From: a virus
Length of the DNA stretch: 24,251 nt
Strand: one strand, 5' to 3'
IMG/VR virus record: IMGVR_UViG_3300044712_000921
Location: 1-24,251 of that record
Part shown: one piece after another, positions 5,350 to 13,558 of the stretch
Layout: each line of letters begins with the position of its first letter
Position numbering within the stretch: position 1 is the stretch's first letter
Translations under genes and position numbers: made by a program
Notes under the pieces: generated by a model
Databases searched by the model: none
The model's input: only the letters and a program-made list of their open reading frames with translations
What the model was told of the DNA's origin: nothing

Positions 5350-6081
5350 TCACCCCACCACCTCCGCCGCCAGCGCGGAAAACCACATCTCCGCCCTCGT
5401 CCCGTCCTTCAACGACCGCCCCATATTCGCGGCGCCCTTGATCGGCGGATCGCGCAGAATCGCCGACGCCGAGCACGTCCAAGCCTCTTCCGCCTGGAGG
5501 GCCGCCGCTTCCTTCTCGGTCACCATCGACGGGACAGCGACGATCCGGGGCGGCTCCCGCTCCATGCCCTCGCCGATGCTCGCGACCTCGCTGGCGATAA
5601 TCTGAAACCCCTGCAAGGTCCAGCGCGACGCCGACACCGGCACCAGCACTACGTCCGCGGCGTATAAGCCCAGGGTCAATTCCAGGGACAGGCTCGGCGG
5701 CGTATCGATGATCACCACGTCACAGTCGAGCCTCCGCAATGCGGCGCGCAGACGCATCGCCGCGCCCTGATCGCGGGCTAGTTCGATGCCGATCCGGGAA
5801 AGGCTCGGAGTCGCGGGAATCACCTTGATCGTTTGCACCATCTCAGCGTCCCAGGTAACTCCTGTGAGCCCTAGCTGGCGCGTCAAGAAGTGGTAGACGT
5901 TGCAGGCGTCGATGTCGTCGGCCTCGCAATAGCGCAGCCAGTAGTCGGTCAGATTATTGTTGTGGTCCAGGTCGACAGTTAACACACGCCGGCCTTGATC
6001 AGCCAAAGCCCTCGCCAGGAACACGGCCAGCGTCGTCTTGCCTACGCCGCCCTTAAGACTCGATATCGTCATGATCTTCAC
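5350..6081 (-). CDS. parA: ParA-family partition ATPase
   Basis: A 243-residue protein. It has the deviant Walker A motif KGGVGKTT (residues 10-17, with signature Lys10), Walker A' TVDLDHNNN (around 34-43) and Walker B DVVIIDTPPS (121-130). There is no N-terminal helix-turn-helix, so it resembles short (type Ib) ParA proteins that drive plasmid segregation on the nucleoid. The start GTG 6081 is favoured by a GGAGG seven bases upstream; ATG 6072 would be too far away. A promoter and repeated sites lie just upstream. Within a phage it points to plasmid-like lysogeny. The partner is probably the ParB-like protein 1.5 kb downstream. Confidence 0.9.
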   Translation of the reverse strand: MKIMTISSLKGGVGKTTLAVFLARALADQGRRVLTVDLDHNNNLTDYWLRYCEADDIDACNVYHFLTRQLGLTGVTWDAEMVQTIKVIPATPSLSRIGIELARDQGAAMRLRAALRRLDCDVVIIDTPPSLSLELTLGLYAADVVLVPVSASRWTLQGFQIIASEVASIGEGMEREPPRIVAVPSMVTEKEAAALQAEEAWTCSASAILRDPPIKGAANMGRSLKDGTRAEMWFSALAAEVVG

Positions 6082-6097: not shown

Positions 6098-6229
6098 TGT
6101 AAGTATATATTACGTACTATGACAGTATATTACACTTACACACGGAAGGCAAGATACTTACTATGTAATTGTTATATACTTACATTTATTTGACGCAGTT
6201 TCGGAAAAAGTAAGTGCTATATACTTGTA
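6098..6229. repeat. TGTAAGTATATA repeats, candidate parS/operator
   Basis: TGTAAGTATATA (6098-6109) recurs as its exact complement TATATACTTACA (6173-6184), with one near copy TATATACTTGTA (6218-6229) and shorter matches ATACTTAC (6154-6161) and ACACTTACA (6132-6140). The cluster covers the parA promoter on both sides. Repeats of this size in front of parA usually act as centromere and operator. Which protein binds them is not known from sequence. Confidence 0.6.
6124..6152 (-). promoter_or_regulatory. parA promoter, sigma70-type
   Basis: Reading leftward: TTGCCT (6152-6147), a 17-bp spacer, TATACT (6129-6124). The predicted start is near 6117, about 36 bases before the parA GTG. It is surrounded and partly overlapped by TAAGTATAT-type repeats, which would let a partition protein repress it. 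Partition operons are usually autoregulated this way. Confidence 0.6.
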
Positions 6230-6263
6230 CGGCCGCTATATTGGGCAGTTTATAGCGGATGCT

Positions 6264-6292
6264 TATTTATTTATATCTTTACTAAATAAATA
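6264..6292. repeat. AT-rich inverted repeat
   Basis: TATTTATTTA (6264-6273) and TAAATAAATA (6283-6292) are perfect 10-bp complements around a 9-base loop, followed by an alternating TA run to 6300. It is the most AT-rich stretch of the window and could be an easily melted element or an architectural-protein site. Confidence 0.5.
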
Positions 6293-6338
6293 TATATATA
6301 CGATATAGCGGATATAGCTGATATCCGTGAAAATGCCC

Positions 6339-6388
6339 TACGCGCGCATACGCGCACGCGCGCGCACACGCGCAGGCGCGCACACATG
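6339..6388. other. Alternating pyrimidine-purine tract, Z-DNA candidate
   Basis: About 50 bases alternate pyrimidine and purine with a single break near 6375, mostly CG and CA steps. It lies between the first and second 16-bp repeats and is next to an AT-rich dyad. Such tracts readily adopt left-handed DNA under negative supercoiling. It codes for nothing recognisable. Confidence 0.6.
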
Positions 6389-6586
6389 AGGGCGTGTTTT
6401 GCGTAAGATCGGCTATATCCGCTATACGTGTAGCAATTCTATACAGCACATACACATAGAAAATCTAGTGATATAGCGGATATAGCCAGGTTTAGCGGAT
6501 AGCGAAGCAAATACATACAGAGTATAGAATAAGGTACTGTGGCCGAATATAAGGCCAAGCGGGTAAGCATCAAGCTCGCTTAAAAC

Positions 6587-6647
6587 GTTAACTGACTCCA
6601 AAAAATTAACAGGTTAACCCCTGGCTATAGTGGCGTATTGTGTTAAC
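6587..6647. promoter_or_regulatory. GTTAAC palindromes before the packaging genes
   Basis: The hexamer palindrome GTTAAC occurs at 6587-6592, 6613-6618 and 6642-6647, with a related ATTAAC at 6605-6610. Spacing is 26 and 29 bases. The last copy lies inside the longest version of the small terminase frame, which favours the internal GTG 6675 as the real start. They may be a late-gene regulator site; a -10-like TATAGT sits at 6626-6631 without a good -35. Confidence 0.4.
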
Positions 6648-7322
6648 TCGAAAAACGCCGCTATACTTGGCGTCGTGGCGATCTACTCGCTCGCTGACTT
6701 CGCCCGCATCGCTAAAGTATCAAAGCCCGCGGTCACCCAGGCCGTGCGGCGCGGCAAGATCATAAAAGGCTCTGACGGAAAAATAGATTCGGACAATCCG
6801 CTTAACGCGGCATACCTTGGTGAGAAGCTGCGCGACATTCCGATTCTACCTCGACAGAAAAATCAGCCACCGGCCGAGCCCTCGGAACCCAAGGCGGAAA
6901 AGCCAAAATCGGAAAAGTCAAAGCCTCCAAAAGGTGACGCCGTGTCACCCCCTAACCATCCAACGCTCTCGCCGGCTGAGCGCGAGAAGATGATGAGGGA
7001 AGGCCGCGAGTCATTGAACCTGGATAGGTCGCGGAAGATCGCCGACCTCGACCTGAAGCGCCGCATGGCCGAGGGTCACGCTATTCGCAACGCGCAGCGC
7101 AAAGGACAGCTGGTTGAGCGCGACCTTGTTCGCCAGCGCTTCAACGCCTTCGACGCCAGCCTCAAGACTAACTTCCGCGACATGCCCCGGCGCGTATCAG
7201 CTCAGATCCACGCAATCGCGGCATCGGGATCGGCCCGCGATGTCGAAGCGTACCTAGAGCGCGAGATTGGCCAGGCGATAGCCCGGGCGGTTGAAGCATC
7301 GAAAAGCTTGGGCCTTTCCTAG
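6630..7322 (+). CDS. Terminase small subunit (gpNu1-like)
   Basis: Up to 230 residues. A winged/helix-turn-helix DNA-binding segment (VAIYSLADFARIAKVSKPAVTQ then AVRRGKI) is followed by a Pro/Lys linker (residues ~75-115) and a helical C-terminus with many Arg/Lys. This is the layout of lambda gpNu1-type packaging proteins, which bind cos and recruit the large subunit. It directly precedes the large subunit with no gap. GTG 6630 gives the longest form. GTG 6675 begins exactly at the conserved domain and may be the true start; neither has a clear ribosome site. Confidence 0.8.
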   Translation: MAYCVNSKNAAILGVVAIYSLADFARIAKVSKPAVTQAVRRGKIIKGSDGKIDSDNPLNAAYLGEKLRDIPILPRQKNQPPAEPSEPKAEKPKSEKSKPPKGDAVSPPNHPTLSPAEREKMMREGRESLNLDRSRKIADLDLKRRMAEGHAIRNAQRKGQLVERDLVRQRFNAFDASLKTNFRDMPRRVSAQIHAIAASGSARDVEAYLEREIGQAIARAVEASKSLGLS

Positions 7323-9382: not shown

Positions 9383-9625
9383 GTGACGCGCCCCCTCGCC
9401 GAAATCCAAGCCGACCTTACCCTCGCCTACGCCTCCCGCCGAAAAGCCATCGAAGCCGCCGAATACACTATGGATTCCGGCCAGGGTCGCATGGGCGCCA
9501 AACGTGATCTCGCCGCCATCGAATCGACCATCAGGGCACTTCGCGCCGAATACGACGAAGCCGAAGACCTGCTCAATGGCGTCGATTCCGGCATCATCGA
9601 AATGGACGTGCGGAGGTACGGATGA
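9383..9625 (+). CDS. gpW-like head-tail joining protein
   Basis: An 80-residue, mostly helical protein between large terminase and portal, the place of lambda gpW. It starts at GTG 9383 after GGGGG and ends overlapping the portal start (ATGA). The pattern of a first helix (LAEIQADLTLAYASRRKAIE), a short turn with Gly (DSGQGRMGAKRD) and a second long helix (LAAIESTIRALRAEYDEAED) resembles gpW/DUF6148-type small head proteins. gpW binds below the portal to complete filled heads. Family membership is judged from size, position and pattern, so the call is moderate. Confidence 0.65.
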   Translation: MTRPLAEIQADLTLAYASRRKAIEAAEYTMDSGQGRMGAKRDLAAIESTIRALRAEYDEAEDLLNGVDSGIIEMDVRRYG

Positions 9626-11280
9626 GCCTCGCCTCCCGCATCCGCGCCGCCTTCGATAAACCAGCCCCGGCGCATCGCGGTCTCGTCGAAGGCGTTACCC
9701 CTGGCGACCAGAGCGGCGCGCAAGCCTCGTCCGGATGGGCTTGGCACGGCGGCGTCTCTCGCCCGTGGGCCGGCGATAAAGCTCCCGGCAGCATCTCTTA
9801 TCCGTCGCTCTGGTCGCTCGATACCTACCGCCTGCGCCAGCGCTCCCGCGTCGCTTACTGGGACAGCGTCCAAGCGCGGGCGCTCATCGGCCGCCTGGTC
9901 GATAACGTCATCGCCTCCGGTCTCACCCTGGAATCCTCGCCGGTTTGGAGCATGATCTCCCCCGACTGGTCGGAGGAGCGCCGGCGCGATTGGTTGGCGA
10001 ACACCGAAAACCGGTGGATGCTTTGGGCGAATTCCACGGACCCGGACGCCACCGGCCGCCTCACGCTCCAGCAAATTCAGCGCCTTGAATTTTCTAGCCG
10101 CCTCCGCGACGGCGAGACCATTCCGATTCTTCGCTATTCTCAATCGCCCAATTACTCCAACCCCGTGCAGCTCCAATTCCTCGATCCCGATCAGGTCGGA
10201 GACTACGCCTCGGCTACCCAAAGGACCGCCGCCAAGAAAGCCGACAACCGCATCGTCGACGGATTCGAGCTAGACAAGGCCGGCCGCGAAATCGCGATCT
10301 ACGCGCTAGATGAACAAACCGCGAAGGCCGAACGCATCCCGGTATCCGGTCCGTCCGGCCGGCGCTTCGTGCTTCACCCTGCCATTATCGACACCTTCGG
10401 CCGCGTGCGCGGCATAGGCGTCCTCGCGAACCTTATCCATGAGCTGGAGAAGATCACCACCTACTCCGTCGCCGAGCTGGCGGCCGCGGTTATCAACGCG
10501 TCGATAGCCGGCTGGACCGAGACCGAGGCCGGATCTCCGAAGGGCCCCGGCTTCAAGGCTCCGTCGCTCAAGGCGGACAGCCAGGCGCAAGCCGCGACGG
10601 CGTCGGCGACTTCCCCGCAGCCGCAGCGCTATGAGATCAACAACCCAGGGCTGTGGATCAATTCAACGGCCCCCGGCCAAAAGCTCCAGTCCTACGACAC
10701 CAAGCGTCCGAACGTAAACTTCGATGTCTTCCTCAAGGCTTTCGTCGCCCAGCTTTCCGCCTCGCTCGGCATCCCGGTCGAAGTCCTGACCATGTCCTTC
10801 AACGCCAACTATTCGGCGAGCCGCGCGTCCTTGCTCCTGTTCTGGACCGTCGTCGAGACCTGGCGCGACTCTTCCGCCGCTATGTTCTTGGGTCCGATCT
10901 ACGCCGCTTGGTTCGCCGAGGAAGTCCGCGCCGGCCGAATCGAAGCCCCCGGCTTCGGCGAGTCGCCGACGCTCACCCGCGCGTGGCTGAACTGTGACTG
11001 GATCGGCATTAACAAGCCAAGCATCGACCCCCAAAAAGAAGCCACCGCCGCCGACACTCGAATAGCCGCCGGCCTTACGACCAGGGCCCGCGAAGCGAAG
11101 GCCTACAACGGATCGGAATTCTCCGAGAACGTTTCGCGCCTCGCCATCGAAAACGCCGACCTCGCGAAGGCGAATAAAAGCATCACGCCCGCGGCTCCGG
11201 CTCCAGCTTTTTCCGCCAGCAGTTCAAAGCAAGAATCCGCGCCCAACGATCAAAAACCCCAGGAGGACGAGGAAGAATGA
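9622..11280 (+). CDS. Portal protein, lambda gpB family
   Basis: A 552-residue protein matching lambda-type portals. It has YWDSVQARALIGRLVDNVI-type early helices, FSSRLRDGETIPILRY, LQFLDPDQVGDY, and GRVRGIGVLANLIHELEKITTYSVAELAAAVINAS with a later FNANYSASRASLLLFWTVVETWR. The portal dodecamer forms the DNA channel at one capsid vertex and contacts the terminase and tail. The C-terminal ~40 residues are low-complexity and acidic (PQEDEEE). The start ATG 9622 overlaps the gpW-like stop. No separate fusion or truncation is visible. Confidence 0.93.
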   Translation: MSLASRIRAAFDKPAPAHRGLVEGVTPGDQSGAQASSGWAWHGGVSRPWAGDKAPGSISYPSLWSLDTYRLRQRSRVAYWDSVQARALIGRLVDNVIASGLTLESSPVWSMISPDWSEERRRDWLANTENRWMLWANSTDPDATGRLTLQQIQRLEFSSRLRDGETIPILRYSQSPNYSNPVQLQFLDPDQVGDYASATQRTAAKKADNRIVDGFELDKAGREIAIYALDEQTAKAERIPVSGPSGRRFVLHPAIIDTFGRVRGIGVLANLIHELEKITTYSVAELAAAVINASIAGWTETEAGSPKGPGFKAPSLKADSQAQAATASATSPQPQRYEINNPGLWINSTAPGQKLQSYDTKRPNVNFDVFLKAFVAQLSASLGIPVEVLTMSFNANYSASRASLLLFWTVVETWRDSSAAMFLGPIYAAWFAEEVRAGRIEAPGFGESPTLTRAWLNCDWIGINKPSIDPQKEATAADTRIAAGLTTRAREAKAYNGSEFSENVSRLAIENADLAKANKSITPAAPAPAFSASSSKQESAPNDQKPQEDEEE

Positions 11281-11573
11281 CCGAAGCTATCTACGCCGTC
11301 GCCGGTAGCCTGGCAACTGTCCTCATCATTTACATCATCAACACCCTCCGCACGGCCTCCTCTCTTCCCCGTCGCGTCAAGCGCTTGGAGGCTGTTTCCG
11401 CTCTTTCCGTAGAAACCCTCGACGTCCAGACCGAAGGCCTTATCGCCATCGCCGAAGCAGTCTCCGGCGAGAAGTGTAACGGAAATGTCAAAGACGCCCT
11501 GGCGTCGATGAGGGAAAATAAAAAAAAGACCAGGAGCTTCCTAGCCGAAAACGTCACCGGAGGCGCGCGTTGA
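11277..11573 (+). CDS. Single-pass membrane protein, lysis-cassette candidate
   Basis: A 98-residue protein from ATG 11277, overlapping the portal stop, with GAGGA upstream. Residues ~6-24 (YAVAGSLATVLIIYIINTL) form one membrane helix near the N-terminus. A basic, helical part follows (SSLPRRVKRLEAVSALSV) and ends in a charged tail. It lies immediately before the M23-like enzyme and the two-helix membrane protein, so it may be an inner-membrane spanin or a holin partner. The layout (one N-terminal helix plus a helical soluble part) fits an i-spanin or a holin regulator; no family was recognised. Confidence 0.65.
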   Translation: MTEAIYAVAGSLATVLIIYIINTLRTASSLPRRVKRLEAVSALSVETLDVQTEGLIAIAEAVSGEKCNGNVKDALASMRENKKKTRSFLAENVTGGAR

Positions 11574-12037
11574 TCTATACCGCTCGCTTTGCCCACCTGG
11601 AATCGAGGCCAAATCTTTCCGTAGGTGATGCCGTTATGCGCGGCGACCTTCTCGGAGTTATGGGAAGCTCGGGGCAAAGCGAAGCGCCGCATCTCCACCT
11701 AGACGTCGTAGTCGGCATGCAATCCAACGCATACAGCTTGGCCAGTATCGACAACGGCTGTCCTGCGCCGGCACCGGTCCGGCAGCTTCTTTACTTCGCT
11801 GACTCCGATCTATTCGGCGTTCCCTTGATCGTTACCACGCCATACGCCGAAGTCGAGTACTTCACCAAGCGAGGCAAGGTCCACTACGGCTTGGACCTCG
11901 TTCCGTTCGACCGCAAGGAAACCGCTGACCACCGCTCGATCTACTGGAATCGCACGTTCCACGGTCGGGTAATTCGCATTGGCTTCGACCCGGAAGGATA
12001 CGGGCATCACATCCAGATTTCCTACGAGGCACCTTAA
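11570..12037 (+). CDS. M23-like metallopeptidase with circularly permuted motif order, putative endolysin
   Basis: A 155-residue protein. The first ~45 residues look like the C-terminal half of an M23 (LytM) domain: ARFAHLES (His9), SVGDAVMRGDLLGVMGSSG, then the HLH motif (His41, His43). A ~50-residue linker follows. The last part is the N-terminal half: GKVHYGLDLVP (His105, Asp109), FHGRVIRIGFDPEGYGHHIQISY. The three zinc ligands and the other catalytic histidine are present, in permuted order. TTG 11570 is firm: GGAGG lies 6 bases upstream and it overlaps the previous stop. M23 enzymes cut peptidoglycan peptides. No signal peptide is seen. It lies between two membrane-protein genes, as in lysis cassettes. 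Confidence 0.75.
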   Translation: MIYTARFAHLESRPNLSVGDAVMRGDLLGVMGSSGQSEAPHLHLDVVVGMQSNAYSLASIDNGCPAPAPVRQLLYFADSDLFGVPLIVTTPYAEVEYFTKRGKVHYGLDLVPFDRKETADHRSIYWNRTFHGRVIRIGFDPEGYGHHIQISYEAP

Positions 12038-12291
12038 TGGACAACCAGAAAACCGGCCTCCTCGAAGAGTCCCCCGGCGTTACTTCTTCCAAGCGCTTCT
12101 TCGGCGCGGCGCTGATCTCGGCGGGTGGCCTCCTTCTCACCGCGATCGGCGTCGTCGCCATCTTTCAAAAGGTCGCCGACCCGGAAACCGCCTTAGCGGC
12201 TGGCACTACCCTGGTCGCCACCGGCGCCGCTCTGCTCGGCATCGGCGTTCTCGAAGGCCTCGGCAATCGAATCGGGGGTCCGCGTGAATAG
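12037..12291 (+). CDS. Two-helix membrane protein, putative holin
   Basis: An 84-residue protein from ATG 12037, overlapping the enzyme stop (TAATG). Two hydrophobic helices are seen, about 22-44 (FGAALISAGGLLLTAIGVVAIF) and 53-75 (ALAAGTTLVATGAALLGIGVL), with charged ends, the topology of class II holins. Holins form membrane lesions that time lysis and release the endolysin. Sequence family is not recognised; the call rests on size, topology and position beside an M23-like gene. It could also be a structural membrane protein, but that is less likely here. Confidence 0.65.
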   Translation: MDNQKTGLLEESPGVTSSKRFFGAALISAGGLLLTAIGVVAIFQKVADPETALAAGTTLVATGAALLGIGVLEGLGNRIGGPRE

Positions 12292-13558
12292 GCTCTACGC
12301 AATGGAGCGCGGCTTCCTGACTAGGCTCCTTTCCGACCGCCGCGAACTCCTCGCCATTTCCCGGACGCTCGGTACTGCCGAAGCCATGCGCGCGGCCCGC
12401 GAGGACCTTATCTCCTCCGCCGCGATCTACGTCACTCCGCAGACTCCCGAGCAGACCGCCGCCTCGTACATCGTCGACGCCGACGGCGTGGCGCATATTC
12501 CGATCAAGGGCGAGCTTACTCCCCAGGCCAAGACCGACGCTTGCGGCGCATACACCGCCCAGGCTCTCACCGAGTACGGCTTTATCTCTGCCGCGTCCGC
12601 CGCCGCCGACTCCGACCCCAAGGTCAAGTCCATCGTCTACGACGTGGACAGCCCCGGCGGGTACGTCGATGGCGTCGACATGGCGGCCCAGGCGATGGCC
12701 TCGGTTAAGAAGCCGACCGAGTCCCGCGTCTGGGGCTTTGCCGCCTCCGCCGCCTATTGGCTGGCCTCCCAAACCGACCGCATCGTAGCGATGACACCAG
12801 CCGCGCAATTTGGCTCGATCGGCGTTGCGTTGGAAGAATTCGACAAGGACGAAGCCCTAGCCCGCGAAGGCATCGCCCACCGGGTCTACTCCTCGACCGA
12901 TGCGCCGGACAAGCGTCCGGATACCAAGACCCCGGAGGGCCGCGCCAAGATCGTCGCCTATCTCGACAGCGTCCACAGCGTATTCGCCGCTCGCGTCGCC
13001 GAAGGCCGCAAGGTTACCGCCGAGAAAGTCGCCAAAGACTTCGGCCGCGGCGGCCTACTTATCGCCGCCGACGCGCGCAAGGCCGGCATGATCGACGAGA
13101 TCGTCGGCACCTCCATCTCCCGTCACTCCGCTGGCGTCGCCAGCTCGGCCGCCGCTCAAGCGGCCATCCCAAACGAGGAGGTCCGCATGGATCTCAATAC
13201 GCTCAAGGCCGAGCACCCGGACGTCTACGCTCAGGCCGTCAAAGTCGGCGTCGATCAGGAGCGCTCGCGCGCCGATGGTCTCCGCAAGTGGCTCGTCGCC
13301 AGCCCGGGCAATACCGCCCTGGCCACCATCGTCAACGAAGCGCTCGCCGCCGGCAAGGCCGAGTCCGACGTGCTTCCGTCGTTGATCACCGCCGCCCAAT
13401 CCAAGCCGGTCGCCGATACCCCGCCGCCGGTCCCGACCGCTACCGCCAAGAACGGCGCCAACGCGGAAGGCGAAGCCGACGACGACGGCTCCAAGGGCGA
13501 GGCGCAAATCCGCGCCCTCATCTCCGGCAAGACCACGAAGGAGGCCGCCCATGCCTAA
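12284..13558 (+). CDS. S49 (ClpP-fold) capsid protease, gpC-like
   Basis: A 424-residue protein. The peptidase core runs from about 65 to 270: VAHIPIKGEL, IVYDVDSPGGYVDG (118-130), then WGFAASAAYWLASQTD with the likely catalytic Ser155, and QFGSIGVA. Such proteases process the portal and scaffold during capsid maturation. The catalytic Lys is not clear from inspection. The C-terminal ~120 residues are helical, then Pro/Ala- and acid-rich, and include an internal start for a scaffold. GTG 12284 follows GGGGGT and overlaps the holin-like gene by eight bases. The order portal-protease-decoration-capsid is that of lambda. Confidence 0.9.
   Translation: MNRLYAMERGFLTRLLSDRRELLAISRTLGTAEAMRAAREDLISSAAIYVTPQTPEQTAASYIVDADGVAHIPIKGELTPQAKTDACGAYTAQALTEYGFISAASAAADSDPKVKSIVYDVDSPGGYVDGVDMAAQAMASVKKPTESRVWGFAASAAYWLASQTDRIVAMTPAAQFGSIGVALEEFDKDEALAREGIAHRVYSSTDAPDKRPDTKTPEGRAKIVAYLDSVHSVFAARVAEGRKVTAEKVAKDFGRGGLLIAADARKAGMIDEIVGTSISRHSAGVASSAAAQAAIPNEEVRMDLNTLKAEHPDVYAQAVKVGVDQERSRADGLRKWLVASPGNTALATIVNEALAAGKAESDVLPSLITAAQSKPVADTPPPVPTATAKNGANAEGEADDDGSKGEAQIRALISGKTTKEAAHA
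13187..13558 (+). CDS. Nested scaffold protein (Nu3-like), internal start
   Basis: An in-frame ATG at 13187, codon 302 of the protease gene, has a perfect GAGGAGG (13175-13181) five bases upstream, better than the protease's own ribosome site. The 123-residue product (MDLNTLKAEHPDVYAQAVKV) is helical with an Ala/Pro/acid-rich end. Lambda makes its scaffold Nu3 from the end of gene C in just this way. Scaffold function is inferred from this parallel and the strong internal site. Confidence 0.75.
   Translation: MDLNTLKAEHPDVYAQAVKVGVDQERSRADGLRKWLVASPGNTALATIVNEALAAGKAESDVLPSLITAAQSKPVADTPPPVPTATAKNGANAEGEADDDGSKGEAQIRALISGKTTKEAAHA

Follow-up and report, generated by a model that had tools for sequence, protein, structure and literature searches.

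A viral gene for a probable circularly permuted M23 metallopeptidase, proposed as a holin-dependent endolysin

Few peptidoglycan-hydrolase folds have been studied as much as M23, from which many antibacterial lysins are drawn. The canonical order of its motifs is HxxxD, AHL, HxH. The stretch of DNA that we analysed (24,251 nucleotides of the IMG/VR virus record IMGVR_UViG_3300044712_000921; hereafter the window) contains a gene at 11570-12037 on the plus strand, the 155-residue product of which departs from this order and reads AHL, HxH, HxxxD. We asked whether this protein is an M23 domain whose chain has been circularly permuted in nature, as had been proposed in an earlier note on this DNA, and whether it may serve the phage as a lysin. 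A natural permutation would mean that a defined hairpin of the M23 sheet can accommodate new chain ends, and it would make the folding of M23 readily testable. Since the order is rearranged with all residues kept, direct predictions follow for crystallography and zinc assays.

The earlier note was not aware of a described permuted M23 lysin. We also found none in the open-access literature, which was the scope of the search (subscription papers lay outside it), and a 2022 review of the M23 family does not mention permuted members (PMC9662197). Among cell-wall peptidases there is a precedent for natural permutation in the circularly permuted NlpC/P60 enzymes (YaeF/LRAT-like; PMC6403190), which, unlike M23, have an unrelated cysteine-peptidase fold.

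Reading frame and motif order

The translation of 11570-12037 has AHL at residues 8-10 (H9 of RFAHL; 11594-11596), HLH at 41-43 (H41 and H43; 11690-11698) and HYGLD at 105-109 (H105 and D109; 11882-11896), as the earlier note had described. The protein ends with GYGHHIQISYEAP (11996-12034), which profile alignment and predicted strands identify as the end strand and new C-terminus. In ordinary M23 domains, the equivalent strand runs on through a hairpin into YxTxYAHL. The motif order also agrees with the Pfam match: residues 3-48 correspond to positions 45-89 of PF01551 (34.3 bits; cut-off 28.7), so that the second half of M23 stands first in the chain. The pattern HLH followed by HxGxD matched once in the window and in none of 100 shuffled versions.

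In LytM, two histidines and the aspartate hold the zinc, and the first histidine of HxH and a mid-domain histidine are located at the water; the zinc motif is defined as H(x)nD (PMC9662197, from which we also took the role of H9). H9 would be the equivalent of LytM His260; it lies 32 residues N-terminal of H41, as expected of M23 (~30 residues before HxH). By the M23 motif, H41-L-H43 comprises a catalytic histidine and a zinc ligand, and HYGLD is the HxxxD zinc motif.

The reading frame opens with TTG, which is preceded at a distance of six bases by a GGAGG ribosome-binding site (11559-11563) and overlaps the TGA of the preceding open reading frame (11571-11573). From these features the earlier note had argued that the gene has neither a misplaced start nor a simple truncation. 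Homologues (described below) agree on both counts: they begin with ATG at the equivalent site (M-[IT]-[YL]-T-x-R-[FYL]-A-H-L) and likewise stop directly after GYG...[YF]E.

A linker of ~50 residues, thought earlier to join the old C-terminal to the old N-terminal end, is indeed present, but not all of it is new. Its part YFADSDLF / LFIDKELF resembles the xDPxxFL-like tail that follows HxH in ordinary M23 domains. Because of this resemblance, the actual joint is, as judged by alignment, only a few residues long: the old C-terminal end probably extends to YFADSDLFG (11792-11818; likeness to the xDPxxF tail), and the old N-terminal strand resumes at LIVTTPY (11825-11845; compare ITSPFG, hhalign).

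Homology of both halves and predicted fold

The C-terminal half of the window protein by itself gave no Pfam match in a single-sequence search; a permutation explains why such genes appear as half-domains in profile searches. We rotated the sequence by placing the C-half before the N-half; rotated sequences served solely as search queries and alignment rows. Rotation raised the PF01551 score from 34.3 to 44.4 bits and extended the coverage from positions 45-89 to 20-89, through the rejoined hairpin. A gain was also seen in the comparison with lysostaphin (4qp5) in permuted order, where the score rose from 29.3 to 38 bits in an alignment spanning the rejoined hairpin HGRVIRIGFDPEGYGHHIQISYEAP-IYTARFAHL.

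Profile comparisons with shuffled controls gave similar results. A C-half profile of seven sequences scored 28.0 (hhalign) against ten ordinary M23 domains, with a maximum of 19.9 among 200 column shuffles. The rotated family scored 130.6 over 108 columns against the ordinary M23 profile, versus 111.5 over 46 columns without rotation; the best of 60 rotations with a shuffled C-half reached 117.7, below the real score. The segments paired by hhalign were (permuted/ordinary) TTPY/TSGF, HYGLD/HAGVD, GRVIRI/GYVGRS and GYGHHIQIS/GYGNLVEIN.

An AlphaFold2 model built from nine sequences was fairly confident (pLDDT 85.8, pTM 0.85). Its strands (residues 2-10, 27-32, 41-48, 86-91, 107-112, 123-125, 132-140 and 145-153) follow the M23 segments AHL, GxxIG and HxH, then TTPY, HxGxD, IYWN, GRVIRI and GYGHHIQI, an order that in the model fits a permuted M23 fold. 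Foldseek searches of PDB and BFVD with either model returned no significant match and no M23 structure; the method is sequential, and this result is therefore weak evidence either way, although it lends the fold no structural confirmation. Taken together, the controlled rotation tests, the family of same-order homologues and the permuted order of the modelled strands support the conclusion that the window protein is a naturally circularly permuted M23 domain, the C-half of which is homologous to the first half of M23. With PF01551 members (LytM, lysostaphin and phage M23 endolysins) it shares both halves, the zinc ligands, the catalytic histidines and the domain size. It differs in that the halves are swapped, with the chain starting at the strand before AHL and ending at the pre-hairpin strand.

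We propose that an M23 chain was cut within the beta-hairpin that links the GYGxxVxI and YxTxYAHL strands, and that the old C-terminal tail was connected, with hardly any spacer, to the strand that used to be N-terminal, by way of YFADSDLFG and then LIVTTPY. Since the two strands at the opening are adjacent in ordinary M23 domains, the active site should stay undisturbed. Its three-dimensional arrangement would be unchanged, with H105, D109 and H43 on the zinc and H41 and H9 activating the water.

A sequence in this order might also belong to a domain-swapped dimer, in which the halves of two molecules complement one another and the active unit is not a monomeric permutant. Intra- and intermolecular pairing look the same in sequence, but the single-chain model has a pTM of 0.85, and we regard the dimer as very improbable.

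Related permuted proteins and their origin

Single-sequence scans with the window protein and with the portal protein found no relatives. Further IMG/VR scans yielded seven other distinct proteins with the same motif order (L032, L030, L029, L033, L034, L036 and L060), which are 149-156 residues long and 43-56% identical to the window protein. With the window, the family has eight distinct members (L031 is identical to L030, and L032 lies on the L021 contig). The L021 protein, which is 46% identical to the window protein over its full length and shares its order, came from a scan with a degenerate DNA pattern (HLH then HxGxD); the others came from alignment-driven scans and a second pattern. 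Six of the seven passed the PF01551 cut-off, and L029, scanned alone, was slightly below it (28.5 bits).

We discarded most of the remaining pattern matches, which did not lie in frame or lacked an M23 context. The sole match from the genome collection (L035, Curtobacterium) was also rejected; it consisted of 28 residues located upstream of, and reaching into, the start of an unrelated gene. Neither INPHARED phages nor PLSDB plasmids gave a full-length match to the permuted protein, and the matches that we inspected (Partridge, pir03, sm033, Lalka27b, MMP7, phiLo and MD-2021a) had the ordinary M23 order.

The window gene comes from a single metagenomic contig, where a mis-assembly, a frameshift or a wrong start might mask a gene of ordinary order. 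Order, start and stop are shared by seven other distinct contigs, however, which refutes such an artefact and leaves it next to no probability. Because at least seven further viral contigs keep the permuted order, in apparent lysis gene clusters, we conclude that the rearrangement is genuine and has been maintained, and that no sequencing error produced it.

The zinc ligands and the extra histidine, all of which the earlier note had described as kept, are invariant in nine of nine sequences, namely the eight members and a more divergent permuted protein (L054, see below). Invariant in this set are M1, A8, H9, L10, G19, G32, G35, H41, H43, D78, F82, Y92, H105, D109, D114, G132 and G145. We estimated dN/dS for L030 and L032, the sole pair with clearly unsaturated dS; in the remaining pairs, synonymous sites were saturated or nearly so. 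The value of 0.10 indicates purifying selection on this pair of sequences.

Circular permutations usually arise by way of a tandem duplication. The simplest origin of the family would be a tandem M23 duplication from which the two outer halves were later lost. The earlier note had offered the middle of such a duplication as an alternative to a true permutation; this holds as the probable origin but not as the present state, every member being a free-standing open reading frame of 149-156 residues. That the gene is a degenerate remnant of this kind, with half of each copy left and no function as a folded unit, is likewise largely refuted and has very little probability left: against it stand the free-standing frame of constant length in eight contigs, the five active-site residues (H9, H41, H43, H105 and D109) invariant among proteins that are 37-91% identical, the low dN/dS of the measurable pair and the confident, compact AlphaFold2 model.

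L054 (2218-1724, minus strand) encodes a divergent permuted M23 of 164 residues with the same cut point (order AHL-HLH-HPGID) and two separate Pfam M23 stretches. The tail after HLH resembles that of M23 enzymes of Thermus phages, which themselves have the ordinary order. In a tree of rotated permutants and ordinary domains, L054 grouped with the Thermus-phage M23s (support 96/80 and 98/95), apart from the main family (100/100). Its nearest ordinary relatives there, from Thermus/Meiothermus phages (Lalka27b_28, MMP7 and phiLo), have the order HPGVD-YAHL-HLH, unlike L054 and the window protein. The tree suggests a second origin of the permutation in L054; in an AU test, a single clade of L054 and the main family was not rejected (p=0.0885), and we therefore do not claim an independent origin. 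The L054 phage also carries an M23 of ordinary order within an open frame of ~1026 residues.

A third motif arrangement occurs in L025 (2993-3628, minus strand) and in Synechococcus phage S-EIVl (AHV82231; L064 2001-2747), where HLH or, in S-EIVl, HLD is followed by HxGxD and then LLHT. These are also phage M23s with rearranged motifs, like the window family, with a different cut point; AHV82231 is annotated simply as 'peptidase M23 family'. We put at about even the chance that M23 has been permuted more than once in phages (window family, L054 and S-EIVl/L025) and that the permutants form a distinct, previously undescribed class of lysins.

Gene neighbourhood and possible role in lysis

The permuted gene sits between a portal gene (9622-11280) and an S49 protease gene (12284-13558). 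It is directly preceded by a gene for a 98-residue protein (11277-11573, plus strand) with one N-terminal transmembrane-like segment and a KCNGNV motif, a proposed partner in a lysis cassette. In L036 and L038, relatives of this protein, with CNGNV in common, are encoded immediately ahead of the permuted gene. Downstream, an 84-residue protein (12037-12291, plus strand) with two transmembrane-like segments is a candidate holin by position and size; family searches gave no convincing match for it. Recognised holins adjoin the permuted gene in two other contigs: L021 (identical to L040) has a downstream GTA_holin_3TM gene (PF11351, 3.8e-13), and the downstream neighbour in L038 is near-identical to it (PHROG holin, 6.8e-22). 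Small transmembrane-like proteins are encoded downstream of the permuted gene in L036, L060, L041 and L042.

A search of the window and of seven family contigs, all of which may be partial, for three lysin families found no second M23, no Amidase_2 and no Phage_lysozyme. The lack of another lysin of these types supports an endolysin role for the permuted protein. The chain begins at a core strand, without a signal peptide, and the enzyme would be expected to build up in the cytoplasm; release by a holin would thus be the expected route. The neighbouring small membrane protein would open the inner membrane and let the enzyme reach the peptidoglycan, where it would presumably act as a peptidase on the peptide cross-links. 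From the sequence evidence as a whole, we consider it likely that the gene encodes a holin-dependent phage endolysin, an M23 domain opened at one beta-hairpin and with its old ends joined.

Tape-measure and tail proteins often contain M23 domains, and the gene lies among head genes both in the window and in L041 (portal upstream, protease downstream). The permuted M23 might hence be a virion or assembly peptidase instead of a lysin. Other contigs have different outer neighbours, yet small membrane proteins flank the gene there too, including the two recognised holins. The protein has just the one small domain and none that would target it to the virion, and no other lysin of the searched families accompanies it. 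Near relatives of the window phage, moreover, have other genes or nothing between portal and protease. This slot holds a weakly C39-like protein between two small membrane proteins in L006 (4639-5322), and another protein flanked by small proteins in L004 (13001-13591) and L005 (4815-5375); in L002 there is almost no gap. On this evidence we find a virion or assembly role improbable and retain the endolysin as the preferred reading.

Two small membrane-protein frames that overlap almost fully in different reading frames were seen downstream of the holin candidate in L060 (458-812, minus strand) and in L036 (6480-7084); these are possibly nested spanin-like genes. Elsewhere in the window, a ParA-like partition protein (PHROG, 6.5e-44) is encoded on the opposite strand close to the packaging genes (5350-6081, minus strand), and a frame of 128 residues (2445-2831), without a match in PHROG, begins like a signal peptide. 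L021 also encodes a 287-residue protein (6196-7059) that consists mostly of near-identical short repeats (xxAGEWI/xxAGGWI/xxAGESI).
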